From Thalassovita litoralis (GTDB lineage: Bacteria; Pseudomonadota; Alphaproteobacteria; Rhodobacterales; Rhodobacteraceae): a stretch of DNA of 48,238 nucleotides. Shown here piece after piece: positions 28,997 to 46,236 of this stretch. Every line of letters starts with the position of its first letter. Position 1 is the first letter of the stretch. The translations under genes and the position numbers were made by a program. Below the pieces are notes generated by a model, which was not told the DNA's origin, made no database searches, and saw nothing but the letters and a program-made list of their open reading frames with translations. The DNA is taken from positions 1 through 48,238 of the forward strand of contig NZ_FXTO01000024.1 in the NCBI RefSeq assembly GCF_900182725.1. Reading direction: 5' to 3'.

Positions 28997-29455
28997 CTAG
29001 CTCACTGTTTGATTTTCCGAACCCACTTCCGCGAGCAAAATCTGCCGAATTGAGCTTTCAATTTTGACTTTTCCAAATGTTGAAGCATCTCGGAAAACTG
29101 ACTTCGTTTCGCATTCGAAGCAAATCAAGTCATGCTGACGGCCGACAACTTTTAGACCAACTGAACTTTCCCCGACATGGACCACATAGACCTCGCATGC
29201 TAGGTTCGCGCCTGCTTTCACCGGCGCATGGAATTGTAGGTCCATAGAGACAAAAGGCATGGCCGTGTTTCTTTCCGTGAGTAGAAAAAGCCAGCCCCGG
29301 CCTGAAAGCAAATCGTCCCAGAAAGTCTCGATCGCTTCCAGCGCGAAATTCGTGATCCGGCCAGTAAAGGCGATTCCCAGCTGGTCACAGTCGCCAAAGA
29401 AAATCCTGCGTTCGAAGGCAAATCGTGGTTTAAATTCTGTTTCTGGTACATTCAT
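28997..29455 (-). CDS. 4HBT-family acyl-CoA thioesterase
   Basis: A 152-residue hotdog-fold protein of the 4-hydroxybenzoyl-CoA thioesterase type. The motif FFGDCDQLGIAFTGRITNFALEAIE corresponds to the catalytic RVxxxDxDxxGHV/I segment, with an Asp at about residue 22 or 24. It is the last gene of the minus-strand catabolic unit, after araC, and may recover CoA from dead-end esters such as adipyl-CoA or hydroxyadipyl-CoA. The substrate cannot be read from sequence. The ribosome binding site is weak. Confidence 0.78.
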   Translation of the reverse strand: MNVPETEFKPRFAFERRIFFGDCDQLGIAFTGRITNFALEAIETFWDDLLSGRGWLFLLTERNTAMPFVSMDLQFHAPVKAGANLACEVYVVHVGESSVGLKVVGRQHDLICFECETKSVFRDASTFGKVKIESSIRQILLAEVGSENQTVS

Positions 29456-29528
29456 TGCAGCGTTACGGGCTCAACATTTCTTTGTCTCTGGTGCGTGACA
29501 GCGATAGGAAGGAATAGTTTTCCGGTAA

Positions 29529-30410
29529 TTATGCCATGCGCCGGAATTCGGCGGGGGTCGCGCCTGTCATTTTTCGAAAAGTTCGACTAAAATGACTCTG
29601 ATCTGCAAAACCGCAGTCAAGCGCGACCACTTTCAGGGGGGCATTACCCTTTCTCAGCATCTCCTGGGCCTTCGATATTCGCTTGCGCAAAACATATGCA
29701 TACGGTGCCAACCCAAACTCCGCCTTGAACTGACGCGAAAAGTGAAACTGGCTGAAACCGATAGATGCGGCCATGTCTTCCAGACTGAGGTTTTCACCTA
29801 AGCAGCTTTCAACGAGATCGATGATTCTCTGCCTTTGAGCAGGGCTGAAGTTCGAGTTTGCGTCGCTGGTCAAAGAGACCTTGGCGTACTGACGCAGAAG
29901 GTGAACGGCGATCTGGATGCGCAGGGCGTCGATGATCAATCTCTGGCCGATTCCACCGTTCTTTAGCTCATTCTCTAGCAATTGGATGCAGTTCAGGATA
30001 CAGGGGTCCTTCGCAGACAGACAATCATTGATCTCAATGGACTTCGGGTCACGATCAAAGACCGAAAGGGCCGTGTTTTCGAGTTCACTGTGACTGAGAT
30101 AGACGTGTCTAACCGTGATAGGCTCGGACCAACTCCAAGTGGATTCCTCTGCACGCGTGAGCAAGGAAATCCTACCTTTCTCTACGCGCGCGCTTTGCCA
30201 TGGGCCGCCACTCGTGCGGCGCATAGTGGTTGGCGCGCCATCATATGCAACAATCATATAGTCGCGCATGGGGGGAATTGCCGCGTCTTGTCGCTCATAA
30301 CGATAGCCCTTCAGGGTAATGCCGTTCCAGTTGCACCCGGAACTGTCCAACGTAGTCGTGCCGGGAATCCATTCGGGTATCCGGTCCGGTGATATGAGCA
30401 GTCTTTCCAT
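29529..30410 (-). CDS. AraC-family transcriptional regulator
   Basis: The 293-residue protein has the C-terminal double helix-turn-helix of AraC/XylS: LSLEDMAASIGFSQFHFSRQFKAEFG and VVALDCGFADQSHFSRTFRKMTGATPAEFRR. The N-terminal part (about 1-170) would bind the inducer, with no recognised effector motif. ATG at 30410 follows GGGAGGCCAAG and is preferred over the frame to 30434. In the Acinetobacter cyclohexanol cluster the regulator ChnR is also AraC-type, so this is a candidate pathway activator; that match is by family only. It lies within the operon it may control. Confidence 0.88.
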   Translation of the reverse strand: MERLLISPDRIPEWIPGTTTLDSSGCNWNGITLKGYRYERQDAAIPPMRDYMIVAYDGAPTTMRRTSGGPWQSARVEKGRISLLTRAEESTWSWSEPITVRHVYLSHSELENTALSVFDRDPKSIEINDCLSAKDPCILNCIQLLENELKNGGIGQRLIIDALRIQIAVHLLRQYAKVSLTSDANSNFSPAQRQRIIDLVESCLGENLSLEDMAASIGFSQFHFSRQFKAEFGLAPYAYVLRKRISKAQEMLRKGNAPLKVVALDCGFADQSHFSRTFRKMTGATPAEFRRMA

Positions 30411-30462
30411 CTTGGCCTCCCTGAACTTTTTCACGATCGTCCGCTTGAGCTGAAATTTCGGC

Positions 30463-31665
30463 TTAGGTCGTCTCGCGCATCCGCGGTTCTTCTCGAACGA
30501 TATTCGCTTGAGTCAATCTATCGATTTCAGCTTCTGTCAGTCCAGCCTCGCTAAGCAACTCCCTACTATGCTGCCCGAAGCGAGGCGGTGCCGCGCGAAC
30601 CGCTCCGGGGGTACGCGACAAGCGTGCTGGCACGCCGGTGCCGCGGTAGGTGCCAACTGATACCACCATGCCGCGATGTCGGGTGTGTGGATGCTCCAAC
30701 GCTTCATTCACATTCCGAACGACTCCGGCGGGAATCCCAGCTTTCAAAAGCACCGGCTCAAGTTTGAAGGCGTCATGTTGCACCAGGCACTCTGACAAGA
30801 CCTCTGTCATCTCTGACCGATGCGCAAGACGCGCGGCATTGTCGGCAAATCGTGGATCGCAGGGCACCTCAGGTAGGCCAAGCACGTCACAGAGTTTTGC
30901 GAACTGACCATTGTTACCGATAGCCAGATAGAGTTTGCCATTACTTGTTTCGAACATGTCGTATGGTACGATATTTGGATGCCCATTGCCGGTCGCCATT
31001 GGTATCTGTCCGGACATGAGGGAATTAGCCGCTTGGGGATGCATCATGCTGATCGCGCAATCATATAGCGGCACTTCGATGGCTTGGCCCAATCCGGACC
31101 GGCCCCGTTCCAAAAGTGCGGCGAGAATAGCGTTACAGGCGATCAGACCGGTGCCGATGTCCACGATGGGCGTACCCATGCGTGTCGGGCCTTCGGAGGG
31201 ATTGCCGTTGATGCTCATGAGGCCCGTCATAGCTTGTACCACGGCGTCATAGCCGGGAAAACCGCCAAGTGGGCCATCGGAACCAAATCCAGTCACATGG
31301 CAGAGTACCAGTCTAGGAAAACGTGCCCTGAGAACATCAGCATAACCAAGCCCCCATTTTTCAAGAGTACCAGACTTAAAATTGTGAACTAAAACATCCG
31401 CATCCTGAAGAAACCGCAAAATCAGGTCGCGCCCTTCCGGTTGCTGCAGATCGATAGCGATGGACCGCTTGTTGCGGTTGGCGCCAGAGAAATAAGCGCT
31501 GAGTTCATCATTGAAAGGCGGGCCCCAACTGCGGGTCTCGTCGCCCAGAGGCGGCTCCACCTTGATGACCTCAGCGCCATGATCCGCAAGCATTTGGGTG
31601 CAGTAAGGCCCGCCCAGCACGCGGCTGAGGTCGACCACCTTGATCCCGTCCAATGAGCCAGCCAT
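30463..31665 (-). CDS. CaiB/BaiF class III CoA-transferase, probable adipate CoA-transferase
   Basis: A 400-residue family III CoA-transferase. N-terminal LDGIKVVDLSRVLGGPYCTQ and the catalytic Asp at about 140 in PGYDAVVQAMTG are characteristic; the protein ends with the usual C-terminal domain. It moves CoA from a donor, often succinyl-CoA, to a carboxylate. In this operon the natural acceptor is adipate, the product of the aldehyde dehydrogenase. ATG at 31665 overlaps the stop of the iron alcohol dehydrogenase gene (ATGA) and is preceded by AGGAGG, so it was preferred to the TTG three bases earlier. Adipate specificity is inferred from context. Confidence 0.85.
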   Translation of the reverse strand: MAGSLDGIKVVDLSRVLGGPYCTQMLADHGAEVIKVEPPLGDETRSWGPPFNDELSAYFSGANRNKRSIAIDLQQPEGRDLILRFLQDADVLVHNFKSGTLEKWGLGYADVLRARFPRLVLCHVTGFGSDGPLGGFPGYDAVVQAMTGLMSINGNPSEGPTRMGTPIVDIGTGLIACNAILAALLERGRSGLGQAIEVPLYDCAISMMHPQAANSLMSGQIPMATGNGHPNIVPYDMFETSNGKLYLAIGNNGQFAKLCDVLGLPEVPCDPRFADNAARLAHRSEMTEVLSECLVQHDAFKLEPVLLKAGIPAGVVRNVNEALEHPHTRHRGMVVSVGTYRGTGVPARLSRTPGAVRAAPPRFGQHSRELLSEAGLTEAEIDRLTQANIVREEPRMRETT

Positions 31666-32819
31666 CAAAGCGCCTCCTGATAGAGGCGCGACACATCTTC
31701 GGCTGTCATGTCGCGCGGGTTGGTCTCCAGCAATCGCGTGATACCGGTCACGACCTCATTAGCCATTCCGGGAATGGCTGCCTCGGTCACTCCGACACCA
31801 GAAAGTCGAGACTCAAGTCCGCTTTCGACTAGCATCCGTTCCATCTCGTCGATCAGGCCATGGGCCGCAGCCGCATCAGAGTTGAAAGGCCGCGAGGGCA
31901 GTAGTAACCGCGATAGACGAGCATATTCAGCTTCTGCAACGGGCATGTTGAACCTCATCACTGGTCCTGCGACCAGAGCGTTTGCGTGCCCGTGAGGAAC
32001 CTTGAAACCTGTTCCAAGTGGGTATGACAAGGCATGAATCGCCCCCACGCTGGCATTAATGAAGGCCATCCCAGCCAGTGTCGCCCCCAACAGCATGGCC
32101 TCTCGCGCTGACAGGTCCGAAGGCGTTTCCATGACGATTGGTAAGTTCTGACCGAGAAGCACCAGCGCTTTGTCCGCCATTCCATCGGAAATGGGATTCT
32201 TTCTGGTGCGACTGGTTACTGCCTCAATGGCGTGAACCATTGCGTCTAACGCCGTGGCCGCTGTGATGTGACGAGGCATTCCCAATGTTAGCTTTGCATC
32301 TAGCAAGGCAACGTCAGGCAGAAGCTGCGGTGCATATACCGCTTTTTTTTCGTGGCTTTCCGAAGTCAGCACGGACACCCATGTTACCTCTGATCCGGTC
32401 CCTGCCGTGGTTGGCACCTGGATCAGTGGCAAGCGTTTATCGGTGACCTGATTAATCCCGATCATGTCCGTAATCGGTTGATCGTTGGCTACCGCCGCTG
32501 CGATGACCTTGGCAGTGTCCAGTGAACTGCCGCCGCCAAGTCCGATGATTCCGTCAGCACCAAAGGCCCGCGCGACCTCTACCGCGGCCTCGACGACAGC
32601 GATCGGGGGGTCCGCTTCGACTTTATGAAAAATCTCAACCTCGATGCCAGCAGCCCTAAGTGAGGCGGCTGCCTCGTCCGCAAAACCACAGGCCAATATG
32701 CCCGGGTCCGTCACGACCAGCGCACGGGTGCAAGACAAATCTTGCATCAGGCTGCCGATCCGGCCAAGCCCACCGCTCTCGCAGACGATCCTCGGGGTGG
32801 AAAGGAAATTGAAGTCCAT
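31665..32819 (-). CDS. Iron-type alcohol dehydrogenase, probable 6-hydroxyhexanoate dehydrogenase
   Basis: A 384-residue group III (iron-dependent) alcohol dehydrogenase. The NAD-binding GGGSSLD is at 95-101, TTAGTGSE at 137-144, and the metal ligands Asp192, His196, His262 and His276 are all present. Relatives include NAD-dependent 4-hydroxybutyrate dehydrogenase, so oxidation of an omega-hydroxy acid is expected; here 6-hydroxyhexanoate to 6-oxohexanoate. The well-studied ChnD enzyme for this step is of the zinc type, so the substitution is unusual. The start lies 18 bases after the acyl-CoA dehydrogenase gene, and the stop overlaps the CoA-transferase start. Confidence 0.86.
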   Translation of the reverse strand: MDFNFLSTPRIVCESGGLGRIGSLMQDLSCTRALVVTDPGILACGFADEAAASLRAAGIEVEIFHKVEADPPIAVVEAAVEVARAFGADGIIGLGGGSSLDTAKVIAAAVANDQPITDMIGINQVTDKRLPLIQVPTTAGTGSEVTWVSVLTSESHEKKAVYAPQLLPDVALLDAKLTLGMPRHITAATALDAMVHAIEAVTSRTRKNPISDGMADKALVLLGQNLPIVMETPSDLSAREAMLLGATLAGMAFINASVGAIHALSYPLGTGFKVPHGHANALVAGPVMRFNMPVAEAEYARLSRLLLPSRPFNSDAAAAHGLIDEMERMLVESGLESRLSGVGVTEAAIPGMANEVVTGITRLLETNPRDMTAEDVSRLYQEAL

Positions 32820-32837: not shown

Positions 32838-33998
32838 TTAAGCTGCTGCAGTGCGGATCATATTCCGCGCGATCAGTATTTGCTGAATCTGGGTTGTCCC
32901 CTCGTAGATGCGGAAGAGACGCACATCGCGATAGAAGCGCTCGACCGCATATTCGGCCATGTATCCTGCACCGCCGTGGATTTGCACTGCGCGATCGGCC
33001 ACTCGACCTACCATCTCACTGGCAAACATCTTGCAGCAGGCAGCATCAGTCGACACGTTCTGACCAGCGTCCTTGCGGCGTGCTGTTTCTTCGATCATGC
33101 AACGCGCTGCGAAGGCCTCGGCGCGACTGTCAGCCAGCATGGCTTGGATCAGTTGCTTTTCAGCGATGGGTTCACCGAATTGTTTGCGTTCCATCGCATA
33201 GGATAGGCTGTCACGGATCAGCCGTTCGGCGGCGCCCACACAGACGGCAGAAATATGCAGTCGGCCCCGGTCAAGGACTTTCATTGCTGTCTTAAAGCCC
33301 TTGTTCAGACGGTCCGGCCCGCCGATAATGTTCGCGGCAGGCACGCGGACATTGTCAAGGATGACGTCGCATGTGTGCGAGCCCTTCTGCCCCATCTTCC
33401 TGTCAGGCTGGCCAAGCGTTATGCCTGGCGTCCCTGCCTCGACGAGAAAGGCGCTTACGCCGGCAGAACCTTCCGCCTCTGGATTGGTCCGGGCAAAAAC
33501 CGTGAATAGATCGGCACGCGGTGCATTGGTAATGTAGCGTTTCGTGCCGTTCAGAAGGAAATCGTTACCGTCACGCCGCGCCGTAGTGCGCAGACTGCCA
33601 GCATCCGACCCAGCATCTGGCTCGGTTAGGGCGAAGGATGCGATCATATCTCCGGACGCGAGAGCTGGTAGATACTGCGCCTTCTGCTCGTCGGTTCCAT
33701 CGATGATGATTCCCTGAGAGCCGATCCCGTTGTTGGTGCCAACTAGCGACCGGAACGCAGGCGAAGCCTGGCCAAGAACGAAAGCGGCTTGCACTTCCTC
33801 TATCATCGACAAGCCGAGCCCGCCGAAATCTTCCGGGATCGACATGCCGAAAAGGCCCATCATGCGGATTTCATCGACCAGCATCGGCGGAATCACATCC
33901 TCGTCGGCGACGCGATCCTCGTAAGGGATTAGTCGCTCTTTCACGAAGCGGTCGAGCGCGTCGAGAAACTGGGAAAGGGTATCTTTATCAAGGGCCAT
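32838..33998 (-). CDS. Acyl-CoA dehydrogenase, probable adipyl-CoA dehydrogenase
   Basis: The 386-residue flavoprotein shows all family signatures: SFALTEPDAGSDAGS (FAD/substrate loop), the KRYITNAPRADLFTVFART segment and the catalytic base Glu at about 366 in RIYEGTTQIQ. The C-terminal helix ends IARNMIR. It should oxidise adipyl-CoA to 2,3-dehydroadipyl-CoA, comparable to DcaA of Acinetobacter, and pass electrons to the ETF encoded at 43356-45040. The substrate is from context. Its ATG is 15 bases downstream of the iclR stop, in the same direction. Confidence 0.88.
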   Translation of the reverse strand: MALDKDTLSQFLDALDRFVKERLIPYEDRVADEDVIPPMLVDEIRMMGLFGMSIPEDFGGLGLSMIEEVQAAFVLGQASPAFRSLVGTNNGIGSQGIIIDGTDEQKAQYLPALASGDMIASFALTEPDAGSDAGSLRTTARRDGNDFLLNGTKRYITNAPRADLFTVFARTNPEAEGSAGVSAFLVEAGTPGITLGQPDRKMGQKGSHTCDVILDNVRVPAANIIGGPDRLNKGFKTAMKVLDRGRLHISAVCVGAAERLIRDSLSYAMERKQFGEPIAEKQLIQAMLADSRAEAFAARCMIEETARRKDAGQNVSTDAACCKMFASEMVGRVADRAVQIHGGAGYMAEYAVERFYRDVRLFRIYEGTTQIQQILIARNMIRTAAA

Positions 33999-34013: not shown

Positions 34014-34808
34014 TCAGGGTGCGACCGCCGCAACGCGGCGGACAAGATCGACAAGGCGGTGCGCGACGTCGCTTTCGATCCAGTCGCGCGTAAGGGTTTG
34101 CGAAGGGCCACCGCAGTTGAAGGCAATAATGGGTGAGCCGTCCTTCGGCACGAAGGGCACCGCTACAGCGTTCACATCACGTTTCCACTCCGTGAAGGAC
34201 GTGCAGTAACCGTGCTGTTGGTAGTCTGCGATAGCTGCTTCGATTCCGGGCTGCACATTCGGCCAGTTGTCGCCTTCATGTTCCTCCACAAGGGCCAGAA
34301 TTCTGGCCCGCTCATCCGGGTCGTGCGCCGCTATGCAGGCGCGACCAACCGCGGTCGTGGCCAGTTTAATATGGGCACCAACCTCGATCGCCAGCGTGAC
34401 GGCATTAGTGCCCTTGCACCGCTCCAGATAGACCATCGATAGCCGGTCACGACTGGCCATGGCCACCGGCATGCCTGTGTAATCAGCCAGCTCCTGCATA
34501 AAGGGCTTCGCCAGTTGCCGCAGCGGAATCCCTGCAAGGCAGGAGAAACCCAACGAAAGCACTGGAGGGGCCAGTCGATAACGTGCTGTATCCGGGTCGT
34601 AGCTGAGGTATTCCAGCTTGTTCAGTGTATAGGCCAGCCGGGAGACCGTCGATCTGCTCAGGCCAGTGCGCTCGGCCAACTCACCGTTCCCCAGAGCCTC
34701 CCCTTCCCGCCGAAAGGCCCGCAACAGCTCCAAGCCGCGCGCCAACGCCGTGACAAAATCGCGATCCTGTTTCTCGGCATCCTTGGTGCGGTCTTTCCTT
34801 GGTCTCAC
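34014..34808 (-). CDS. IclR-family transcriptional regulator
   Basis: The 264-residue protein has a winged-helix IclR N-terminus (residues 20-85; GELAERTGLSRSTVSRLAYTLNKLEYL) and an effector-binding domain (about 90-260) with conserved GRACIAA and YCTSFTEWKRDVNAVAVPF. IclR regulators control catabolic genes for aromatic and dicarboxylic acids. A GTG at 34808 is used, since GAGGAGGGATATC precedes it. It is the first gene of the minus-strand unit and diverges from the aldehyde dehydrogenase gene, with a possible operator between them. Confidence 0.88.
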   Translation of the reverse strand: MRPRKDRTKDAEKQDRDFVTALARGLELLRAFRREGEALGNGELAERTGLSRSTVSRLAYTLNKLEYLSYDPDTARYRLAPPVLSLGFSCLAGIPLRQLAKPFMQELADYTGMPVAMASRDRLSMVYLERCKGTNAVTLAIEVGAHIKLATTAVGRACIAAHDPDERARILALVEEHEGDNWPNVQPGIEAAIADYQQHGYCTSFTEWKRDVNAVAVPFVPKDGSPIIAFNCGGPSQTLTRDWIESDVAHRLVDLVRRVAAVAP

Positions 34809-34979: not shown

Positions 34980-36434
34980 ATGAAAGAAATGAATTATCCG
35001 ACCATCCAGCACCTCATCGGACGAGACTGGATCGCTTCTCCCACGCCAGAGGATCGTGCAGTCATAAACCCTGCAAACGGGCAAACTATCGGACAGATTC
35101 CGCAGGCTAGCGCCGCAGATCTAGACCATGCGGTTCACTCGGCCGAATCAGCTTTTCGCCGATGGAAAAACAGCTCTCCCATGGAACGAAGTGCGATTTT
35201 GCGGCGGTTTGCCGACCTGCTGCGCCAAAATGACAGACTGATCGCTGGCTGGATCACTCTCGATGAAGGCAAGCCGCTGGCTGAGGCTTTGGCTGAGGTC
35301 CGCGCCTCGGCTGACCACGTTGACTGGCACGCCGAGGAATGTCGGCGCATTTATGGGCGCATCATTCCATCACGCAGCCCGCGGGTACAGCAGCTTGTCG
35401 TGCGCGAACCGATAGGCGTCTGCCTTGCCATCACGCCTTGGAATTTTCCGCTGAGCCAAGCGGTACGCAAGGTCGCGGCGGCGCTTGCGTCAGGTTGCAC
35501 GATGATCTTAAAAGCCCCGGCAGAGGCTCCGGCGGGTTGCATGGCAATTGCTCGCTATCTGCTGGATGCAGGATTGCCCGAAGGCTGTCTGAACCTTGTC
35601 TGGGGTAATGCGGCCTTCATTTCGGAAACTCTAATTGCGCGCCCCGAGGTGCGCAAAATCACCTTCACCGGTTCGGTCGAGGTGGGCAAGCATCTGGCAG
35701 AATTGGCTGGCCGCCATATGAAGCGGGCGACGATGGAGCTCGGCGGTCACGCGCCCGTATTGGTGTTCGACGACACCGATGCCACGGCCGCGGCGCGCGC
35801 CTTGGCGGTCAACAAGCTGCGCAATGCAGGCCAGGTGTGCATCGCCCCAACCCGGTTTTACGTACAACAAGGCATCTACGATCGATTTCTGTCCGAACTA
35901 GTTTCAGCATTTGAGAGCGTAAAGGTGGGCGCTGGTTTAGCCGAAGGCACGCAGATGGGACCATTGTGTCATCGCGGACGCGTGAATGCGATGGAAAAGC
36001 TCGTCGAGGATGCCCGCGAAAACGGCGCACGGGTGTTGACGGGAGGCAAAAGGCTTGGAAATCATGGTAACTTCTATGCCCCGACAATCGTCGATACGCC
36101 CAACGACGACATTGACTTGATGCGCGAAGAACCCTTCGGCCCGATTGCTGTCGTCTCGTCTTTTCGTGACATAGAGGACGGACTGTCGCGGGCCAACGGG
36201 CTACCCTTCGGGCTGGCGTCCTATGTCTTTACCAATTCGTTAGAGCGTGCAGATAAAGCAGCTGCGGGTTTGCAGGCAGGTATGGTAAGCATCAACCAGT
36301 TCGGCCTCGCTCTGCCCGAGACTCCGTTTGGAGGCGTGAGAGACAGCGGCTATGGGACTGAAGGCGGGACGGAAACCTTCGAAGGCTATCTCATTACCAA
36401 ATTTATCTCGCGCAATCGCGCGCCAGTGCTGTGA
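34980..36434 (+). CDS. Aldehyde dehydrogenase, probable 6-oxohexanoate dehydrogenase
   Basis: The 484-residue protein is of the succinate semialdehyde dehydrogenase type. The catalytic Glu253 is in MELGGHAP and the nucleophile Cys287 in NAGQVCIAP; NAD-binding elements TPWNFPLSQ and FTGSVEVGKHLA are clear. It would oxidise 6-oxohexanoate to adipate, as ChnE does. The start at 34980 follows GAGGGC; the frame extends 27 codons upstream, but that region lies in the control region. The next gene begins 9 bases after the stop, so translation may be coupled. Confidence 0.87.
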   Translation: MKEMNYPTIQHLIGRDWIASPTPEDRAVINPANGQTIGQIPQASAADLDHAVHSAESAFRRWKNSSPMERSAILRRFADLLRQNDRLIAGWITLDEGKPLAEALAEVRASADHVDWHAEECRRIYGRIIPSRSPRVQQLVVREPIGVCLAITPWNFPLSQAVRKVAAALASGCTMILKAPAEAPAGCMAIARYLLDAGLPEGCLNLVWGNAAFISETLIARPEVRKITFTGSVEVGKHLAELAGRHMKRATMELGGHAPVLVFDDTDATAAARALAVNKLRNAGQVCIAPTRFYVQQGIYDRFLSELVSAFESVKVGAGLAEGTQMGPLCHRGRVNAMEKLVEDARENGARVLTGGKRLGNHGNFYAPTIVDTPNDDIDLMREEPFGPIAVVSSFRDIEDGLSRANGLPFGLASYVFTNSLERADKAAAGLQAGMVSINQFGLALPETPFGGVRDSGYGTEGGTETFEGYLITKFISRNRAPVL

Positions 36435-36442: not shown

Positions 36443-38524
36443 ATGCCTGTTGAATTAAGCTTCTCAAATGACGCAGCAATTCTGACCATAGACAATTCGC
36501 CGCTTAACCTAATCAACGCGGAGGTTCGGGCTGGAATACAACACTGTATCTTCAAAGTCCTCGAAACTGGGGCTACCAGGCTGATTATCACCGGCACAGG
36601 AACGACCTTCGTCGCGGGCGCGGATGCGAAGGAATTCGGTAAGTTGCCTGTTGATCCACAACTAAATGATGTGCTGATGCAACTTGCACACCTCCCGATT
36701 CCTACTATCGCAGCAATCAACGGGGCTGCGCTTGGTGGGGGACTAGAGATTGCTCTGGCTTGCTGCTATCGCATCGCCTCAACTTCTGCCAAACTGGGCT
36801 TGCCAGAGGTAAACTTGGGGATCGTGCCTGGCGCAGGGGGAACCCAAAGACTGCCGCGACTTATCGGTATTGAAGCTGCGCTTGACATGATTGTCACCGG
36901 GAAGGCTGTTTCCGCCGAGCAGGCACTGAAAATGGGACTGATCCAGCTGCTAGCCGATGACCCGCTTGGCGCGGCCATAGCTCTCGATGACGATGTACTT
37001 GAGGCGGCACAGGCACCCGACAATCTTCCTTCACCAAAGCCAAACCACGTCGCAGCGGAAGTCGCCCGAGCGCATGTAGCGCGGCGTATGCCTGGCCAGA
37101 ATGCCCCGCAGGTTGCGGTGAACCTAGTCGCGACCAGTGCGACGACGCCGCTGCACGACGCACTAGCCAGCGAGCGCTCTGCGTTTTTGGACCTTCGTAC
37201 CTCGGATCAGGCGCGGGCCCTTAGGCACGTTTTCTTCACCGAGCGTACCGCAACCAACAAGGGGCGCGCCTACCCCCGACCTTCCCGAGATGCTGAAACC
37301 GCCATCGTGGTCGGTGGTGGCAATATGGGCGCAGCTATTGCGTACACGCTGGCGACCGCAGGGATCTCGGTGACTGTCGTCGAACGTAGTGCCTCGTCCG
37401 CCGAGTGGGCCAGTAAAAACCTGCAAAAGCTGATTGATCAGGGTATCAGTCGCGGTATTCTGTCCGTCGATGCGGCAAAGACGGTTGAAGACCGGCTGGT
37501 TACGGTCTCAGGCTATGACGCTCTGCCACCAACCGATCTAGCAATCGAGGCGGCCTTCGAGGATTTTGCGGTTAAGACCGCGATCCTGACCGAACTCGAA
37601 GGCGCACTGCCACCCGAGACCATCATTGCCACAAACACATCCTATCTCGATGTAAATCGGCTCTCTGATGGGTTGAAACACCCGGCACGCTTTGTAGGGA
37701 TGCATTTCTTCAGTCCTGCGCATATTATGAAACTTCTGGAAGTCGTCAGGAGCGACCGAACGTCAGACGGAACATTAGGTGCAGCACTTGTGCTGGCGCA
37801 CAGGCTTGGTAAAATCCCGGTACTGTCTGGTGTTTGCGATGGCTTCATCGGAAACCGAATTTTGTCGAGCTACCGTCGCGCCGCTAATCGCCTTCTGGTG
37901 GAGGGGGCTAATGTCGACGAGATCGACGCGGCTATGCGCGGATTCGGTATGGCGATGGGTCCATATGCTGCACAGGACATGTCGGGGCTGGACATCGCCT
38001 ACGCGAATATCCGTCGCAAGGCAGTTGCCGAAGGGAACTGCTGTGGTCACGTGCCCTTGGTCGAGCGGCTGGTCGAAAAGCACAAACGCCTAGGACGCAA
38101 ATCGGGCGCCGGATGGTACGACTATGGGCCAGACGGCAAACCCTCACATTCGGAGCTGGTCGCTAGCGAAATACTCCGTGTCTCAGAAGAAATGAACTTC
38201 ACTCGCCGCGAGTTCTCAGCTGACGAAATCGTAGAAAGGCTCTTGCTCACAATGGTGGCGGAAGCCTGCGATATCCTTGACGAAGGCGTAGCAGAAAAAC
38301 CGCAAGACATCGACCTAGTAATGATTCACGGCTACGGATTTCCCCGCTGGCGGGGAGGCCTGATGCACCACGCCAAAAATATCGGCAAGGATCGGTTGAC
38401 CGCGCTCTTCAGCGCGCATGTCAAAGAGGATCCTTGCGGCTGGAGGGTGCCTCGTTATTTAGAAAGAGTTTTCGCGACCGGGGAGGAACATGTCAGCATG
38501 TTTCCCACGATCACCGGCAGATAA
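36443..38524 (+). CDS. Fused enoyl-CoA hydratase / 3-hydroxyacyl-CoA dehydrogenase
   Basis: The 693-residue fusion has an N-terminal crotonase domain (about 1-190) with the oxyanion-hole segment AGADAKEF and catalytic Glu103 and Glu122 in LEIALAC and PEVNLGIVPGAGGTQR. A linker follows and then a 3-hydroxyacyl-CoA dehydrogenase with the NAD-binding GGGNMG (291-296), the catalytic His in GMHFFSPAHIMKLLE, and a C-terminal helical domain. It converts 2,3-dehydroadipyl-CoA to 3-oxoadipyl-CoA. It resembles FadB/FadJ or the peroxisomal bifunctional enzyme, but is shorter. ATG at 36443 is selected by GAGG six bases upstream; alternatives are a GTG at 36431 and an ATG at 36437. Confidence 0.9.
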   Translation: MPVELSFSNDAAILTIDNSPLNLINAEVRAGIQHCIFKVLETGATRLIITGTGTTFVAGADAKEFGKLPVDPQLNDVLMQLAHLPIPTIAAINGAALGGGLEIALACCYRIASTSAKLGLPEVNLGIVPGAGGTQRLPRLIGIEAALDMIVTGKAVSAEQALKMGLIQLLADDPLGAAIALDDDVLEAAQAPDNLPSPKPNHVAAEVARAHVARRMPGQNAPQVAVNLVATSATTPLHDALASERSAFLDLRTSDQARALRHVFFTERTATNKGRAYPRPSRDAETAIVVGGGNMGAAIAYTLATAGISVTVVERSASSAEWASKNLQKLIDQGISRGILSVDAAKTVEDRLVTVSGYDALPPTDLAIEAAFEDFAVKTAILTELEGALPPETIIATNTSYLDVNRLSDGLKHPARFVGMHFFSPAHIMKLLEVVRSDRTSDGTLGAALVLAHRLGKIPVLSGVCDGFIGNRILSSYRRAANRLLVEGANVDEIDAAMRGFGMAMGPYAAQDMSGLDIAYANIRRKAVAEGNCCGHVPLVERLVEKHKRLGRKSGAGWYDYGPDGKPSHSELVASEILRVSEEMNFTRREFSADEIVERLLLTMVAEACDILDEGVAEKPQDIDLVMIHGYGFPRWRGGLMHHAKNIGKDRLTALFSAHVKEDPCGWRVPRYLERVFATGEEHVSMFPTITGR

Positions 38525-39592: not shown

Positions 39593-39785
39593 TAGTAGCA
39601 GGCATATCTGCCTCACGACAGGCTGAGCAAGATCATACAATTTCCAAAGCAGGTATGTTCAATACACGGTGCATTCTTCGCCCTTACTCCGAGATCATTG
39701 GCGTACGCCTCAGACCGTTTGACGCCTCCGAGATTGGCGACGTCAGGTGGTGGCTTTGCCAAATGTTACTCTTGGGAGGATAAAT

Positions 39786-40688
39786 ATGGAAATCAGTAGA
39801 GAAGCGGATACGCTGCGGGCGCTTTATCAGAATTGGACCGATCAGATGGTCGAGAACCCAGACCTGACGATCGCGAACTTGCGCAGCATGTTCGATGAAT
39901 GGGGGCAGCCTGCTCTAGAGCCGGAAAACGTTAGCTACAAAAGCGATCATATCGGAGGAGTCGAGGCTATCTGGGCACTGCCTGTCGGGGCCGATACCTC
40001 GCGTGTAATTGTTTACACTCATGGTGGCGGCTTTGCCGTCGGCTCAGCCGATAGTCATCGGAAAATGGCAGGGCACCTCGCTAAGGTGCTTGGGGTTACG
40101 TCGGTGATCCTGCACTATCGACGCGCACCCGAGCACCCATTTCCGGCGCAGATCGAAGATGCGGTAGCCGCGTACACAGCATTGCTGGATAAGGGCTTCA
40201 AGGCAAGAAATATTCTGACCGCTGGCGACAGTGCTGGCGGCAATCTTGCCATCGCCAGCGTGCTGAAATTTCGCGAACTTGGGCTGCCACTGCCCGGAGC
40301 GGTCATCGCATATTCGCCCTGGCTAGACATGGCGATGCGCGGGGAAACACTGGAAACCAACGCGGAAACCGATGCGCTAGTCGGGAAACCGATTCTCGAA
40401 GCGATGGCGGGAATGTTCCTCGGTGAAGGCACTGATCAGCTAAATCCGTTGGCCAACCCTCTGGAGAACGATTTCACCGGTTACCCGCCGCTTTATATCA
40501 ATGCCGGAGGGGCTGAGACGCTTAGGAGCGATGCCGAGCGGTTGCACGAAAAGGCCAAGGCACAGGGCGTAAATGTGACCCTGTCTATCGTCGAAGGCAT
40601 GCAGCATGTCTTTCCCGCGCTTTCGGGACGCGCGCCCGAGGCGAACGAGGAACTTGGTCGCATCGCCGCATGGTATCAGGCCCTCTGA
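39786..40688 (+). CDS. HSL-type alpha/beta hydrolase, probable 6-hexanolactone hydrolase
   Basis: The 300-residue protein belongs to the hormone-sensitive lipase (GDXG) family: HGGGF at 79-83 forms the oxyanion hole, the nucleophile Ser149 is in GDSAGG, and His274 in GMQHVFP and an Asp around 249 complete the triad. Such an enzyme (ChnC type) opens epsilon-caprolactone, the monooxygenase product, to 6-hydroxyhexanoate. ATG at 39786 is preceded by GGGAGGATAAAT; the frame to 39747 lacks that. It is the first gene downstream of the IS remnant and may have its own promoter. Lactone specificity is inferred from its neighbour. Confidence 0.85.
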   Translation: MEISREADTLRALYQNWTDQMVENPDLTIANLRSMFDEWGQPALEPENVSYKSDHIGGVEAIWALPVGADTSRVIVYTHGGGFAVGSADSHRKMAGHLAKVLGVTSVILHYRRAPEHPFPAQIEDAVAAYTALLDKGFKARNILTAGDSAGGNLAIASVLKFRELGLPLPGAVIAYSPWLDMAMRGETLETNAETDALVGKPILEAMAGMFLGEGTDQLNPLANPLENDFTGYPPLYINAGGAETLRSDAERLHEKAKAQGVNVTLSIVEGMQHVFPALSGRAPEANEELGRIAAWYQAL

Positions 40689-40813: not shown

Positions 40814-42451
40814 ATGAACATTCAGACTGAGATTACTAAAACATCCGGAGCGGATTACGACGCAGTCGTCATTGGCGCGGGCTTCGGCGGGCTTTACGCC
40901 GTCCACAAACTTCGCAACGAGCAGGGACTGAACGTCCGGGGCTATGACAGCGCCAGTGACGTTGGCGGCACCTGGTGGTGGAACCGATATCCCGGTGCGC
41001 TGTCGGACACGGAAAGCTATGTCTACCGCTATTCTTTTGACAAAGAGTTGCTTCAAAAAGGCCGCTGGAAAACGCGGTATCTGACCCAGCCCGAGATCCT
41101 CGAATACATGAACGAGGTGGCGGATCATCTCGATCTCCGACGCAGCTACAAGTTCGACACCAAGGTGGACGGCGCGCACTATAATGAAAAAACCGGTCTC
41201 TGGAACGTGATCACTGATAGTGGTGAGACAGTTACCGCCAAATACCTTGTCACTGGCCTCGGTCTCTTGTCCGCAACGAATGTTCCAAAATTCAAGGGCA
41301 TCGATGATTTCAAAGGCCGTATCTTACACACAGGTGCCTGGCCCGACGGCGTGGACTTGAGCAACAAACGCGTGGGCATTATTGGCACTGGCTCGACCGG
41401 TGTGCAGGTTATTACAGCAACGGCACCAGTTGCAAAACACCTGACTGTTTTTCAGCGCTCTGCACAATATGTCGTGCCGATTGGGAACACCCCGCAAGAC
41501 GATGCTACCATCGCAGAGCAAAAGGCAAACTACGATAGTATCTGGAATCAAGTGAAGAATTCTGTTGTGGCCTTCGGCTTCGAAGAAAGCGTCAAGCCCG
41601 CCGAAACCGCCTCCCCCGAAGAACGGGAGCGGGTCTTCGAAGCCGCCTGGCAGCGCGGCGGTGGTTTCTATTTCATGTTTGGCACCTTTTGCGATATTGC
41701 GACCAGCCAAGTGGCCAATGATGCGGCCGCTGACTTCATCAAGGGCAAAATCAAGAAAATCGTGAAGGACCCCAAGGTCGCAGAGAAACTGACGCCGAAG
41801 GACCTTTACGCCAAGCGCCCGCTTTGCGGAAACAACTATTACGAGGTCTACAACCGAGACAACGTGACCCTCGCCGACGTTAAGGCCGATCCGATCGCAG
41901 AGTTCACTCCGAACGGCATACGTCTCGAAAGCGGCGAGGAGCATGAGCTTGACATCGTAATCTTTGCCACTGGCTTCGATGCGGTCGACGGCAATTACGT
42001 CAAAATGGACCTCCGCGGACGCGGAGGCGTGACCATGCGCGACACTTGGAAGGAAGGCCCGCTCGGTTACCTCGGCATGATGGAGGTCGACTTCCCGAAC
42101 TTCTTCATGATCCTTGGCCCTAATGGCCCCTTCACCAACCTGCCCCCCAGCATTGAGACGCAAGTCGAATGGATCGCTGACACGATTTGCACGGTGGAAG
42201 AAGAGGGGGTTCGAAATGTGGAGCCAACCGTGGAAGCGCGCGATGCTTGGGTTCGCACCTGTCGTGAAATCGCCGACATGACACTCTTCCCCAAAGCTGA
42301 AAGCTGGATCTTCGGCGCAAATATCCCCGGAAAGAAGAATGCAGTAATGTTCTACATGGCCGGGATTGGCAATTACCGAAATGCCATTAATGCAGTGAAG
42401 GAGGAAGGTTATACATCCCTGATCCGCAACCGCACTGCCGAGAAGGTGTAA
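40814..42451 (+). CDS. chnB: Cyclohexanone-type Baeyer-Villiger monooxygenase
   Basis: A 545-residue class B flavoprotein monooxygenase. It has two Rossmann motifs, GAGFGG (21-26, FAD) and GTGSTG (191-196, NADPH), flanking the fingerprint FxGxxxHxxxWP (Phe166, Gly168, His172, Trp176). Long stretches such as GTWWWNRYPGA, YVVPIGN, DLYAKRPLC and LGPNGPFTNLPPSIE closely resemble Acinetobacter cyclohexanone monooxygenase as I recall it, so the ketone substrate is likely cyclohexanone or a near homologue such as cyclopentanone. The product is a lactone. ATG at 40814 follows GGGAGGAGTGAC; the longer open frame to 40670 would overlap the hydrolase gene. The lactone hydrolase precedes it and the alcohol dehydrogenase follows. 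Confidence 0.93.
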   Translation: MNIQTEITKTSGADYDAVVIGAGFGGLYAVHKLRNEQGLNVRGYDSASDVGGTWWWNRYPGALSDTESYVYRYSFDKELLQKGRWKTRYLTQPEILEYMNEVADHLDLRRSYKFDTKVDGAHYNEKTGLWNVITDSGETVTAKYLVTGLGLLSATNVPKFKGIDDFKGRILHTGAWPDGVDLSNKRVGIIGTGSTGVQVITATAPVAKHLTVFQRSAQYVVPIGNTPQDDATIAEQKANYDSIWNQVKNSVVAFGFEESVKPAETASPEERERVFEAAWQRGGGFYFMFGTFCDIATSQVANDAAADFIKGKIKKIVKDPKVAEKLTPKDLYAKRPLCGNNYYEVYNRDNVTLADVKADPIAEFTPNGIRLESGEEHELDIVIFATGFDAVDGNYVKMDLRGRGGVTMRDTWKEGPLGYLGMMEVDFPNFFMILGPNGPFTNLPPSIETQVEWIADTICTVEEEGVRNVEPTVEARDAWVRTCREIADMTLFPKAESWIFGANIPGKKNAVMFYMAGIGNYRNAINAVKEEGYTSLIRNRTAEKV

Positions 42452-42523: not shown

Positions 42524-43279
42524 TTGGGAAGGGTATTCGGAAAAGTCGCACTGGTAACAGGTGGAGCGATGGGCATGGGAAAAGCCCATTGTGAAACGCT
42601 GGCACGTGAAGGTGCGCATGTATTTGTAACCGACCGTGACACGGAAGCGGCTGAAAGCGTAGTGAAAGGTATCATTGAAGCCGGAGGGAAGGCGGAATTC
42701 ATTCAACATGACGTGACGCTTGAAGAAGATTGGAAGAATGTCATCTCTACGGTGCAATCAAGTGCTGGTCGGCTTGATGTGCTAGTGAACAACGCTGGCA
42801 TTCTCATTCTTAAGCCGCTCCACGAAACCTCGCCTGACGAATTTGACATGACGTTCAACGTCAATGTACGCGGTATTTATCTCGGCATCCGAGCCGCGGT
42901 TCCATTGATGAAAGAGGCCGAAAAGGCATCTATTATCAATATTTCTTCAATCTATGGGATTGTTGGAGCCGCTTCGGCGGGAGCCTACATTGGATCCAAA
43001 GGCGCCGTACGGATGTTGACGAAATCCTGCGCAGTCGACCTGGCTGAAAGTGGCATACGCGTGAATTCGATCCATCCCGGTGTCATCGATACTCCCATGA
43101 CAAAAGATCTGCTACACGCCGACGAAGTTACCCGGCAGGCAATTCTGGGGGCGACGCTGCTCAAGCGACCAAGCAAACCTGAAGAGGTTTCGAATGCGGT
43201 CCTGTTCCTCGCATCGGATGAGTCATCGTTCGTTCACGGAGCAGAGATTGTAGTAGATGGCGGTTATACTGCGAATTGA
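42524..43279 (+). CDS. SDR alcohol dehydrogenase, cyclohexanol/cyclopentanol dehydrogenase type
   Basis: A 251-residue short-chain dehydrogenase. The coenzyme motif TGGAMGMG is at 12-19, Asp37 in VTDRD points to NAD, NNAG is at 89-92, and the catalytic Ser142, Tyr155 and Lys159 are present. The N-terminus MGRVFGKVALVTGG and the C-terminus SFVHGAEIVVDGGYTAN match my recollection of cyclopentanol dehydrogenase CpnA of Comamonas. TTG at 42524 is favoured because AGGGAG lies 6 bases before it and it restores the family N-terminus; an ATG at 42503 is the alternative. It should oxidise the cyclic alcohol to the ketone used by the monooxygenase. Confidence 0.87.
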   Translation: MGRVFGKVALVTGGAMGMGKAHCETLAREGAHVFVTDRDTEAAESVVKGIIEAGGKAEFIQHDVTLEEDWKNVISTVQSSAGRLDVLVNNAGILILKPLHETSPDEFDMTFNVNVRGIYLGIRAAVPLMKEAEKASIINISSIYGIVGAASAGAYIGSKGAVRMLTKSCAVDLAESGIRVNSIHPGVIDTPMTKDLLHADEVTRQAILGATLLKRPSKPEEVSNAVLFLASDESSFVHGAEIVVDGGYTAN

Positions 43280-43295
43280 CAGGGACCCATCCCGA

Positions 43296-43322: not shown

Positions 43323-43355
43323 CACCATTGCAAATTTTGAAAACGATAAAAGCCA

Positions 43356-44114
43356 ATGAAAATAATTGCTCCTATAAAACGCCTAATTGACCACAACGTG
43401 AAGGTTCGCGTTAAGGCGGACGGGAGCGGAGTTGATCTCGCGAATGTGAAGATGTCGATGAACCCGTTCGACGAGATTGCGGTCGAAGAGGCGATCCGGC
43501 TGAAGGAAGCGGGCAAGGCGGACGAGGTTGTCGTCGTCTCGATCGGCGTGAAGCAGGCGCAGGAAACGCTGCGCACGGCGCTGGCGATGGGCGCGGACCG
43601 GGCGATCCTGGTTGTGGCCGCCGATGACGTGCACCAGGACATCGAGCCGCTGGCGGTGGCCAAGATCCTGAAGGCCGTGATCGACGCCGAGGCGCCGGGC
43701 CTGGTGATCGCGGGCAAGCAGGCGATCGACAATGACATGAACGCCACCGGCCAGATGCTGGCGGCGCTGCTGGGCTGGGGCCAGGCGACCTATGCCTCCG
43801 AGGTCGGGATCGAAGGCGATCATGCCGTCGTGACCCGCGAAGTGGATGGCGGGTTGCAGACGATCAAGGTCAAGCTGCCGGCGATCGTCACCGCCGATTT
43901 GCGCCTGAACGAGCCGCGCTATGCCTCGCTGCCCAACATCATGAAGGCCAAGAAGAAGCCGCTGGATGAGAAGACCGCCGCCGATTACGGCGTCGATGTC
44001 ACCCCGCGCCTGGAGATTGTGAAAACCGCCGAGCCCGCCGCACGGTCGGCAGGCGAGATGGTCGGCTCGGTCGACGAGCTGGTGTCGAAACTGAAAGAAA
44101 AGGGGATCGTGTAA
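43356..44114 (+). CDS. etfB: Electron transfer flavoprotein beta subunit
   Basis: The 252-residue subunit contains the family segments [47 protein letters not shown] and the ETF beta signature around [18 protein letters not shown]. It binds AMP and, with EtfA, carries electrons from acyl-CoA dehydrogenases to the quinone pool. Its body is distinctly GC-richer than the flanking catabolic genes, while the first 20 codons (ATGAAAATAATTGCTCC onwards) are AT-rich, which suggests recombination with a chromosomal copy. No clear ribosome binding site is seen. Confidence 0.95.
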
Positions 44115-45040
44115 TGGCTGTTCTTCTCCTTGCAGAAATCGCCGGTGGCGCGCTGGCGCTGGACGCCACCGCCAAGGCGGTGACCGCTGCCAAATCGCTG
44201 GGCGATGTGACCGTTCTGGTTGCGGGCCCTGCTGCTGCGGGTCAGGCCGCGTCGCAGATCGACGGCGTGGCGAAGGTTGTGGTCGCGGATGACGCGGCCT
44301 ACGCCAACGGCCTGGCCGAGCCGGTCGCCGATCTGGTGGTCAGCCTGGCAGGCAATTATGAACATATCGTTGCTCCCTCCACGGCAAGCGCGAAAAACAT
44401 CCTGCCGCGCGTTGCGGCGCTGCTGGATGTGATGGTTCTGTCGGACGTGACGGCCATCCTGGACGGGTCCACGTTCGAGCGCCCGATCTACGCGGGCAAC
44501 GCGATGCAGACGGTAAAGTCCAACGATTCCAAGAAGTTACTGACCGTCCGCACCACCGCCTTCGACGCGGCTGGCCAGGGTGGCTCGGCCGCCGTCGAGG
44601 CCATCGCAGCAGCCGGCAACGCGGGCCTGAGCGCCTGGGTCGAGGACAAGGTCGCGGCGTCGGATCGTCCGGAACTGACCTCGGCCAAGGTCGTGGTCTC
44701 GGGCGGGCGCGGCGTCGGTTCCGAGGAAAATTTCGCGATTATTGAAGCACTTGCGGACAAACTGGGTGCTGCCGTCGGCGCCTCGCGCGCGGCTGTGGAC
44801 TCTGGGTTCGCACCGAACGACTGGCAGGTCGGCCAGACCGGCAAGGTCGTGGCGCCCGAGCTGTATATCGCGGTCGGGATTTCCGGGGCAATTCAACACC
44901 TTGCGGGGATGAAGGACAGTAAGGTCATCGTCGCCATCAACAAGGACGAAGAGGCCCCCATCTTCCAAATCGCCGATTACGGCCTCGTCGCAGACCTCTT
45001 CGACGCAGTCCCGGACCTGACAAAGGCACTCAAAGAATGA
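44114..45040 (+). CDS. etfA: Electron transfer flavoprotein alpha subunit
   Basis: The 308-residue subunit shows the C-terminal FAD-binding region of Etf[12 protein letters not shown], the segment [45 protein letters not shown] and [10 protein letters not shown]. Its ATG overlaps the etfB stop (TAATG), so the two are coupled. It has the same GC-rich composition as etfB. The likely donor is the adipyl-CoA dehydrogenase at 32838-33998; no ETF:quinone oxidoreductase is in the window, so the chromosomal one must be used. Confidence 0.95.
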
Positions 45041-46236
45041 CAAACGTCTATATCTGCGATTACATCCGCACACCAATCGGTCGCTATGGCGGCGCGCTTT
45101 CTTCTGTGCGAGCCGACGATCTTGGCGCAATCCCACTCAGGGCCTTGGCCAGCCGAAACCCGGGGCTAGATCTAGCGACCATTGACGAAGTGATTTTTGG
45201 CTGCGCCAACCAAGCGGGAGAGGACAACCGTAATGTTGCTCGCATGTCGCTTCTACTAGCTGGATTTCCGGATTGTGTACCGGGGACAACAATGAATCGG
45301 TTGTGCGGGTCGGGCATGGATGCGATAATCACGGCCGCCCGCGCTATCAAATCAGGAGAGGCCGATCTCATTGTCGCAGGTGGTGTGGAAAGCATGTCGC
45401 GTGCTCCGTTTGTGATGCCAAAAGCTACAACAGTATTCTCGCGCGAGAATAGTGTGGAAGACACCACCATCGGCTGGCGCTTCGTCAATAGACTGATGAA
45501 GAGCCAATACGGCGTCGACAGTATGCCTGAAACGGCCGAAAACGTGGCTGAAGTCTTCGGCATCAACCGCGCCGACCAAGATGCTTTCGCCCTACATTCC
45601 CAGCAAAAGGCGAGCGTTGCTATGGCGAACGGTCGTTTGGCCCGTGAAATTGTCCCGGTAGAGATTCCTCAGCGAAAGGGGGAGCCAAAGATCGTCGTAC
45701 AGGATGAACACCCTCGCGCGAGTACGACTTTGGAAGCGCTCGCCCAACTGAAAACTTTCGTAAAAGCGGATGGCACGGTAACCGCAGGGAATTCTTCAGG
45801 CGTGAACGATGGTGCCGCAGCATTGATCCTTGCCACCAGCGACGTCGCAAAAAAATTTGGCCTCACGCCGGTCGCAAGGGTCTTGGGCGGCGCAACCGCC
45901 GGCGTTGCACCGCGCATCATGGGTTTCGGGCCGGCACCGGCGTCGAAAAAGCTGATGGCGCGACTTGGACTGAAACAAGAAGACTTCTCGGTGATCGAAC
46001 TTAACGAAGCCTTTGCTTCGCAGGGTCTGGCCACACTACGGCACCTGGGGATCGCGGATGATGATGCCCGCGTGAACCCAAACGGCGGCGCTATTGCTCT
46101 CGGCCATCCGCTTGGCATGTCGGGTGCCCGCATCACCGGCTCAGCGATGCTGGACCTCAAACCTGGAGAAAAGTCGTTGTCGACCATGTGTATTGGCGTG
46201 GGACAGGGAATTGCAATCGCACTCGAAGCTGTCTGA
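45037..46236 (+). CDS. pcaF: 3-oxoadipyl-CoA thiolase
   Basis: A 399-residue thiolase. The nucleophile Cys90 is in MNRLCGSGMDA, the NEAFASQ segment and GGAIALGHPLGMSG carry the His (about 357), and the second Cys is in TMCIGVGQG (about 385). The N-terminus, ICDYIRTPIGRYGGAL, and FGCANQAGEDNRNVARM are characteristic of PcaF/PaaJ enzymes that cleave 3-oxoadipyl-CoA to succinyl-CoA and acetyl-CoA. The gene overlaps the etfA stop by 4 bases. Codon use returns to the less GC-rich style of the monooxygenase genes. It completes the predicted pathway. Confidence 0.93.
   Translation: MTNVYICDYIRTPIGRYGGALSSVRADDLGAIPLRALASRNPGLDLATIDEVIFGCANQAGEDNRNVARMSLLLAGFPDCVPGTTMNRLCGSGMDAIITAARAIKSGEADLIVAGGVESMSRAPFVMPKATTVFSRENSVEDTTIGWRFVNRLMKSQYGVDSMPETAENVAEVFGINRADQDAFALHSQQKASVAMANGRLAREIVPVEIPQRKGEPKIVVQDEHPRASTTLEALAQLKTFVKADGTVTAGNSSGVNDGAAALILATSDVAKKFGLTPVARVLGGATAGVAPRIMGFGPAPASKKLMARLGLKQEDFSVIELNEAFASQGLATLRHLGIADDDARVNPNGGAIALGHPLGMSGARITGSAMLDLKPGEKSLSTMCIGVGQGIAIALEAV

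Follow-up and report, generated by a model that had tools for sequence, protein, structure and literature searches.

Described systems and the locus

The dehydrogenase that acts on 6-hydroxyhexanoate in the chn pathway for cyclohexanol, ChnD, is of the zinc type, and an AraC-type regulator, ChnR, acts on the operon of the Baeyer-Villiger monooxygenase (BVMO). The dca genes of Acinetobacter for adipate encode the same reaction series as the lower half of the locus described here, the CoA step being carried out by the two-subunit transferase DcaIJ. This locus is an island of 14 genes at positions 28997–46236 of the window (the whole stretch analysed, 48,238 nucleotides of contig NZ_FXTO01000024.1 from Thalassovita litoralis), and it is probably a self-contained cluster leading from the industrial ring compounds cyclohexanol and cyclohexanone to central metabolism, carried on a RepABC-type plasmid of a marine member of the Roseobacteraceae. 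The pathway reading is well supported, because the BVMO scores 742 bits against a solved cyclohexanone monooxygenase (CHMO) and 501 bits against a steroid monooxygenase, because the thiolase exceeds the curated cut-off for PcaF, and because a strain with a sister plasmid grows on cyclohexylamine.

That strain, Mameliella alba KU6B, was isolated on cyclohexylamine as sole carbon source by Yamamoto and co-workers, who assembled its genome from PacBio reads only, placed a cyclohexanone-to-adipate cluster at 59336–71649 of plasmid pKUB77 and did not find the amine-oxidising gene; the adipate-to-tricarboxylic acid (TCA) cycle genes and the regulators beside the cluster go unmentioned in their paper (PMC7206491). 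When plasmid records were searched by megablast with positions 28700–48238 of the window (19.5 kb), pKUB77 (AP022340) was 95.1% identical over 92% of the query, with the same gene order. The cyclohexanone-to-adipate half of the island is already known, having been named in print on this sister plasmid, which lowers the surprise of finding it here. No other paper describing the island was found among open-licence PMC papers, and the available parts of PMC11409719 and PMC6061476 contain no roseobacter case. The available part of the latter describes an adipate block in the caprolactam degradation of Pseudomonas jessenii, in which an oxalate-type CoA-transferase, an IclR regulator, an acyl-CoA dehydrogenase (ACAD) and a thiolase stand together and are proposed for the beta-oxidation of adipate. 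The block resembles the island in these gene families, as judged by description only, and differs in that its front end opens caprolactam and its hydratase and dehydrogenase are separate genes (PMC6061476).

Content and layout of the island

The preliminary description of this DNA had named the enzymes of a complete cyclohexanol-to-TCA pathway and placed them on a plasmid. Family scans found every one of these enzymes, intact, and added two regulators, of the IclR and AraC families, and a 4HBT thioesterase; none of the 14 genes has an internal stop. The plasmid location stands as well: genes for RepC, a RepB/ParB-like and a RepA/ParA-like protein lie at 11623–15154 of the same contig (one of 81 in the 4.1-Mb draft genome of the host), and the island matches plasmid records. 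The features of the island are as follows, bit scores being those of the best model with its curated cut-off where given.

28997..29455, minus strand: 4HBT-type acyl-CoA thioesterase (PF03061, 24 bits, cut-off 20.6)
29529..30410, minus strand: AraC-family regulator (HTH_18)
30463..31665, minus strand: CaiB/BaiF (type III) CoA-transferase, proposed succinyl-CoA:adipate CoA-transferase (361 bits to succinate-glutarate CoA-transferase, cut-off 750)
31665..32819, minus strand: iron-containing alcohol dehydrogenase (ADH), proposed 6-hydroxyhexanoate dehydrogenase (302 bits, cut-off 550)
32838..33998, minus strand: ACAD, proposed adipyl-CoA dehydrogenase (334 bits, cut-off 640)
34014..34808, minus strand: IclR-family regulator with weak PcaR/PcaU/PobR similarity (TIGR02431, 135.6 bits, cut-off 284.75)
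34880-34908, between the divergent arms (IclR/aldehyde dehydrogenase): three-box operator-like site of three alternating half-sites
34980..36434, plus strand: aldehyde dehydrogenase (ALDH), proposed 6-oxohexanoate dehydrogenase (SSADH, 462 bits, cut-off 646)
36443..38524, plus strand: fused enoyl-CoA hydratase/3-hydroxyacyl-CoA dehydrogenase, FadB-like (ECH_1, 3HCDH_N and 3HCDH)
38558-39592: IS5-family (ISPko1-like) remnant splitting the plus arm (DNA matches of 80-86% with IS5 elements that are annotated in other plasmids)
39627..39665, plus strand: AraC-type operator-like site of two direct repeats, 120 bp before the hydrolase
39786..40688, plus strand: HSL-family alpha/beta hydrolase, proposed caprolactone hydrolase (NF058651, 244 bits, cut-off 430; Abhydrolase_3)
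40814..42451, plus strand: cyclohexanone-type BVMO (742 bits to Thermocrispum municipale CHMO)
42524..43279, plus strand: short-chain dehydrogenase/reductase (SDR), proposed cyclohexanol dehydrogenase (generic SDR subfamily model, 251 bits, cut-off 215)
43356..44114, plus strand: electron transfer flavoprotein (ETF) beta subunit, EtfB
44114..45040, plus strand: ETF alpha subunit, EtfA
45037..46236, plus strand: 3-oxoadipyl-CoA thiolase PcaF (TIGR02430, 671.5 bits, cut-off 597)

The starts used for the hydrolase (39786) and the BVMO (40814) each lie downstream of a GGAGG-like motif; those of the ALDH (34980), the FadB-like fusion (36443) and the SDR (42524) follow the annotation of NZ_CP065361, and that of AraC (30410) the annotation of Sulfitobacter indolifex. 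The minus arm reads, from 34808 down to 28997, IclR, ACAD, iron ADH, CaiB-type CoA-transferase, AraC and thioesterase, and the plus arm, from 34980 to 46236, ALDH, hydratase/dehydrogenase fusion, hydrolase, BVMO, SDR, EtfB, EtfA and thiolase. EtfB/EtfA, EtfA/thiolase and CoA-transferase/iron ADH overlap, and spacers of 15 and 18 bases separate IclR from ACAD and ACAD from the iron ADH; this close spacing suggests tight coupling inside each arm. The scans also agree with the preliminary description in that no transporter family was matched in any island gene or in the flanking open reading frames (ORFs) scanned, the flanks having been scanned in part.

The proposed route

In the route we propose, the SDR would oxidise cyclohexanol to cyclohexanone, the BVMO would convert the ketone to epsilon-caprolactone, the hydrolase would open the lactone to 6-hydroxyhexanoate, and the iron ADH and the ALDH would carry this on to adipate. 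The CaiB-type transferase would then load adipate with CoA, presumably drawn from succinyl-CoA; the ACAD step would involve EtfBA and the ETF:quinone oxidoreductase (ETF-QO) of the host, and ACAD, fusion and thiolase together would yield acetyl-CoA and regenerate succinyl-CoA.

The BVMO aligns with the solved T. municipale CHMO without a gap across 527 residues, and scores lower against the phenylacetone (472 bits or less) and OTEMO (412 bits) types. A steroid or phenylacetone monooxygenase was ruled out on these scores; the preliminary description had assigned the enzyme to the cyclohexanone type, with a steroid type as the case that would speak against it, and the assignment holds (501 against 742 bits). 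Its predicted substrate is assigned to the cyclohexanone class only, and its score against the best curated model, 254, lies below the cut-off of 1100. The SDR has Rv2002 as its best PDB match (194 bits), and a cyclohexanol dehydrogenase (4ure) reaches 142 bits. Genes of the putative lactone hydrolase family and the SDR adjoin that of the BVMO, and the order hydrolase-BVMO-SDR recurs in three related loci (L005–L007), on plasmids of Actibacterium, Polaromonas JS666 and Pseudosulfitobacter.

For the lower arm, the families of dca-type adipate beta-oxidation (ACAD, hydratase, hydroxyacyl-CoA dehydrogenase and 3-oxoadipyl-CoA thiolase) are all in the island, with a one-subunit CaiB/BaiF-type transferase at the CoA step in contrast to the two-subunit DcaIJ. 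The best PDB matches of this transferase are 4ed9 (317 bits) and the succinate-hydroxymethylglutarate CoA-transferase 9br6 (269 bits). The ACAD has a general acyl-CoA dehydrogenase as its best PDB match (292 bits, against 210 or less for glutaryl-CoA dehydrogenases), and the fusion scores 456 with a best-model cut-off of 870. A C5 route, from cyclopentanone through glutarate, is disfavoured, the ACAD not being nearest to glutaryl-CoA dehydrogenases and the thiolase being of the 3-oxoadipyl type. The host genome has one ETF-QO match, on a contig other than that of the island, as well as a second PcaF-type thiolase (76%) and seven P450 matches, these seven all off the island contig.

Since the catabolic enzymes other than the thiolase and the SDR fall under the cut-offs of their best models, their substrates were read from position. 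Of the complete pathway claimed in the preliminary description, the BVMO and thiolase steps are well supported by their scores and KU6B lends support, while the substrates of all other enzymes, and that of the BVMO beyond its class, are those that we infer from family and position.

Regulators and transcription units

The IclR-family regulator falls short of the curated PcaR/PcaU/PobR cut-off (135.6 versus 284.75 bits). The three-box site between the arms holds a core palindrome with one mismatch at 34892–34906, and its layout, a palindrome plus an external half-site, is that of the PcaU type; three-box sites for PcaU, PobR and HmgR are described in the available part of PMC8222616. Eighteen of 19 distinct upstream regions associated with an IclR at least 66% identical contain the site with at most 6 mismatches in 29, the best of 200 shuffles having 8–12; the 29-base consensus was built from the same loci, which makes the test partly circular, and several of the 19 regions are close relatives (regions shorter than 60 bases were left out, and duplicates were counted once). 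The sole failure, L018, starts within the gene (residue 170). Four regions in which IclR is 43–45% identical matched the full site no better than shuffles; three of these loci (L050, L076 and L077) have the exact core palindrome, which occurs in 19 of 106 loci overall. With two mismatches allowed, the core palindrome alone is not above chance in the window (7 found versus 4.66 expected, with 16 of 100 shuffles reaching 7), so the weight rests on the full three-box site and its conservation only.

AraC is probably the activator of the upper arm, and conserved direct repeats lie before hydrolase-BVMO. Relatives of it (49–62% identity) lie near hydrolase/BVMO genes in L018, L029, L053 and L059, loci with no close lower-arm genes in the fetched stretch. 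A matrix of the direct repeats, made from six related rows, beat all 300 shuffles in 17 of the 29 upstream regions tested, these being regions kept only where the hydrolase is at least 62% identical (L027 was dropped for containing N); among the tested rows are the window itself (L001) as well as L011–L017 and L021, which are close to the training rows. Of the passing regions, one is from Undibacterium and the other 16 are from loci of alphaproteobacteria or of an uncultured bacterium; the 12 failures include Polaromonas (L006) and Variovorax (L041). The direct repeats would be the target of AraC and the three-box site that of IclR; we infer both pairings, as well as the inducers.

The gap between fadB and the hydrolase takes differing insertion elements, an IS110 gene standing in pKUB77 (L107, 33269–34006) where the window has IS5; in Roseibium the spacing is only 192 bases. 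A gene within the gap of the window was considered and rejected, as the sequence there matches IS5 elements. Because the direct-repeat site lies just downstream of the remnant, control of the upper arm has probably stayed separate. The preliminary description had proposed two divergent units; the divergent arms stand, but the remnant in the plus arm and the separate operator-like site before hydrolase-BVMO lead us to expect three, probably iclR-ACAD-iron ADH-CoA-transferase-araC-thioesterase, ALDH-fadB and hydrolase-BVMO-SDR-etfBA-pcaF. The scan for sigma-70 promoters was uninformative (8 found versus 8.7 expected).

Conservation among plasmids and partial loss

The 19.5-kb query has a match of any length in 563 plasmid records, and in 11 of them at least 80% of it is covered at a single place, at 94.7–100% identity. 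These 11 records come from Ruegeria, Sulfitobacter, Mameliella, Pseudosulfitobacter and Yoonia, so that the search for the same gene order suggested in the preliminary description yields an island recurring in five genera. In Roseibium/Labrenzia plasmids 57% of the query is matched, at 74.5% identity, and gene order is kept in the two that are annotated, with no thioesterase annotated there. Given the 11 records and the order kept in Roseibium, the island is not a chance assembly. Its divergence from Roseibium is purifying: the ratio of nonsynonymous to synonymous rates (Ka/Ks) is 0.03–0.24 in 11 of 13 shared genes, Ks being saturated for AraC and the SDR. Compared with a closer plasmid (L106), Ka/Ks is 0–0.30 over the 14 genes, with 0.13 for the SDR. 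Of 394 sampled genomes of the family, three have a BVMO at E <= 1e-150, namely the source of the window itself and two others, with identities of 100% and 51%; the trait is sporadic, as plasmid cargo would be.

Ten fetched roseobacter copies were checked for all 14 genes, a gene being called absent when it is missing from the stretch fetched. Six carry the full set, four of these with a small difference at the end of EtfA. Two are natural knock-outs, with an IS21 element at the break in both and the genes left there 100% identical: S. indolifex plasmid pDSM14862_e (L109) has lost hydrolase, BVMO, SDR and EtfBA but not the thiolase or the remaining lower-arm genes, and S. pontiacus OXR-199 (L110) is missing the thiolase too. 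L111 has a CoA-transferase truncated beside an IS3 gene, and neither AraC nor thioesterase. The tenth copy, L107 (KU6B), has frame changes in its matches to the iron ADH and AraC.

Outside the island, the window also contains a gene for a SIR2-like domain protein (3910–5079), possibly a defence gene, and one for a 1480-residue strawberry-notch-type NTPase/helicase (17601–22043), on the opposite strand of which a 1056-residue ORF (18102–21272) has no Pfam match and is probably spurious.

Related joined clusters

Related loci were taken as the best 80 of 552 BVMO relatives among the matches listed, with flanks of at most 10 kb on each side, which hide genes further away. At set identity thresholds, three or all four of the lower-pathway families considered lie close by in 23 of the 80; the thresholds for the CoA-transferase and FadB are loose, so L039 and the Pseudomonas loci could represent other pathways. 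The joined loci include marine Rhodobacterales, Novosphingobium and Sphingobium (L032 and L033), an Undibacterium metagenome-assembled genome (MAG; L044), in which a single strand carries the entire set, and another MAG, labelled Acinetobacter lwoffii (L050). The joined upper and lower layout is not unique to the island.

We take L050 to represent the chn cyclohexanol cluster of Acinetobacter. Its proteins resemble those of the window at 60% (BVMO), 60% (hydrolase), 53% (ALDH), 42% (AraC) and 38% (SDR), and it differs in that its ADH is of the zinc and not the iron type, its hydratase and dehydrogenase are encoded separately, and its locus includes an ETF-QO gene (7821–9554). A BVMO at E <= 1e-200 is found in two of 149 genomes of the genus of this MAG, the MAG included, and the second genome has an L050-like adipate block on the same contig, about 11–13 kb off. 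The contrast drawn in the preliminary description, in which the dca genes of Acinetobacter lie elsewhere, is not general, since L050 is joined and the second block lies this near, strain NCIMB 9871 being outside the sample.

The zinc-type ChnD of the chn pathway is replaced in the island by an iron ADH. Within the limited flanks of the 80 loci, no locus carries both types of ADH; the iron type stands alone in 15 and the zinc type in 22, and 43 have neither (cut-offs of 60% identity for iron and 38% for zinc, which leave out a second iron ADH at 46% in L030 and L031). That the two were not found together fits the iron ADH performing the ChnD step; Fisher's test gives p = 0.008, ignoring relatedness, and the 15 loci with an iron ADH include 8 close copies of the island.

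Over 18 chosen loci, pairwise distances of the BVMO correlate strongly with those of the hydrolase (r = 0.93, n = 17), ACAD (0.91, n = 16), IclR (0.94, n = 13), FadB (0.97, n = 9) and iron ADH (0.96, n = 8), and less so with those of the thiolase (0.78, n = 8), ALDH (0.55, n = 15) and CoA-transferase (0.49, n = 16). The weaker values suggest exchange of some parts.

Possible uptake proteins not seen in the window lie near related clusters, namely a TonB-dependent receptor (L032, 13730–16315) and a protein of the Phenol_MetA_deg family (L005, 16757–17506).

Weighing the alternatives

Several observations weigh against a cluster for cyclohexanol or cyclohexanone that is in use. Only the thiolase and the generic SDR subfamily model reach curated cut-offs among the island enzymes, and several PDB monooxygenases named only "putative" score 563–700 bits with the BVMO, between the CHMO and steroid types. 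KU6B was grown on cyclohexylamine, not cyclohexanol, and the matches to the iron ADH and AraC shift frame in its deposited sequence (L107, 40790–41940 and 43174–44075); these frame changes may be sequencing error, the assembly being PacBio-only. The agreement of distances partly reflects shared species history, only two of 393 other sampled family genomes have a BVMO relative at E <= 1e-150, and L109 and L110, two of the ten copies, are without hydrolase, BVMO, SDR, EtfB and EtfA.

The natural substrate could be another cyclic ketone or alcohol, such as cyclopentanone, an alkylated cyclohexanone or a terpenoid; the lower arm would then handle the dicarboxylate formed from it. Such monooxygenases have broad substrate ranges, and no family score fixes the substrates of the hydrolase, SDR and ADH; we nevertheless hold this to be improbable, as the thiolase is of the curated 3-oxoadipyl-CoA (C6) type, a C5 route needs the glutaryl-CoA dehydrogenase to which the ACAD is not closest, and the BVMO is nearer to CHMO than to the steroid, phenylacetone or OTEMO enzymes. 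It is conceivable, if rather doubtful, that the usual entry is cyclohexylamine, cyclohexane or 6-hydroxyhexanoate/caprolactone and that the SDR is auxiliary. KU6B was enriched on cyclohexylamine (PMC7206491), the Novosphingobium relative L032 has no SDR match beside the same core, and the host has its seven P450 matches, all off the island contig; on the other hand, the SDR directly follows the BVMO in many loci, including plasmids without a lower arm in the fetched stretch, and its Ka/Ks against the close plasmid is low. That the island is decaying plasmid cargo, out of use in most carriers, would agree with the IS5 remnant within the plus arm, the IS21 elements at the losses in L109 and L110 and the truncated CoA-transferase of L111, but appears quite unlikely with all 14 window genes intact and of low Ka/Ks, six of ten copies essentially complete, and the operator-like site before the hydrolase lying just outside the remnant.

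Adipate genes with other front ends, and significance

Of the plasmids with a related ACAD and no type I BVMO in the fetched stretch, L101–L103 carry adipate genes together with a luciferase-like monooxygenase and a flavin reductase. The loci compared were:

Agrobacterium plasmid (L101), 4440-14161: adipate-type genes, luciferase-like monooxygenase, flavin reductase; riboflavin-pathway genes
Phaeobacter inhibens plasmid (L102), 1762-14161: adipate-type genes, luciferase-like monooxygenase, flavin reductase; riboflavin-pathway genes
Sulfitobacter W074 plasmid (L103), 5909-15372: adipate-type genes, luciferase-like monooxygenase, flavin reductase; SMP-30/gluconolactonase-type gene
Nitratireductor plasmid (L104), 8418-14506: related ACAD, fused FadB and PcaF near aminotransferases

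As a conjecture, the front end of L101–L103 might act on cyclohexane-1,2-diol or a related ketone as a Baeyer-Villiger system of type II, and the gene content of L104 suggests a front end of the omega-amino-acid type. These arrangements suggest that the adipate genes are a reusable module. We tentatively consider, at somewhat less than even chance, that a mobile adipate cassette of CoA-transferase, ACAD, fusion and thiolase is shared by plasmids of alphaproteobacteria and coupled to differing ring-opening front ends, in this island a type I BVMO set.

The operator-like sites allow direct tests of regulation, and the S. indolifex pDSM14862_e island, with its upper genes and EtfBA lost, provides a natural test pair. 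The iron ADH proposed for 6-hydroxyhexanoate and the CaiB-type transferase proposed for adipate are candidates bearing on nylon-precursor chemistry. If the island is a cyclohexanol/cyclohexanone cluster as we read it, a marine bacterium could gain from a single plasmid the whole path from cyclohexanol into central metabolism, with ETF-QO, and perhaps uptake, supplied by the host. If the cassette is real, the transfer of roseobacter plasmids would disperse complete alicyclic catabolism in the ocean.

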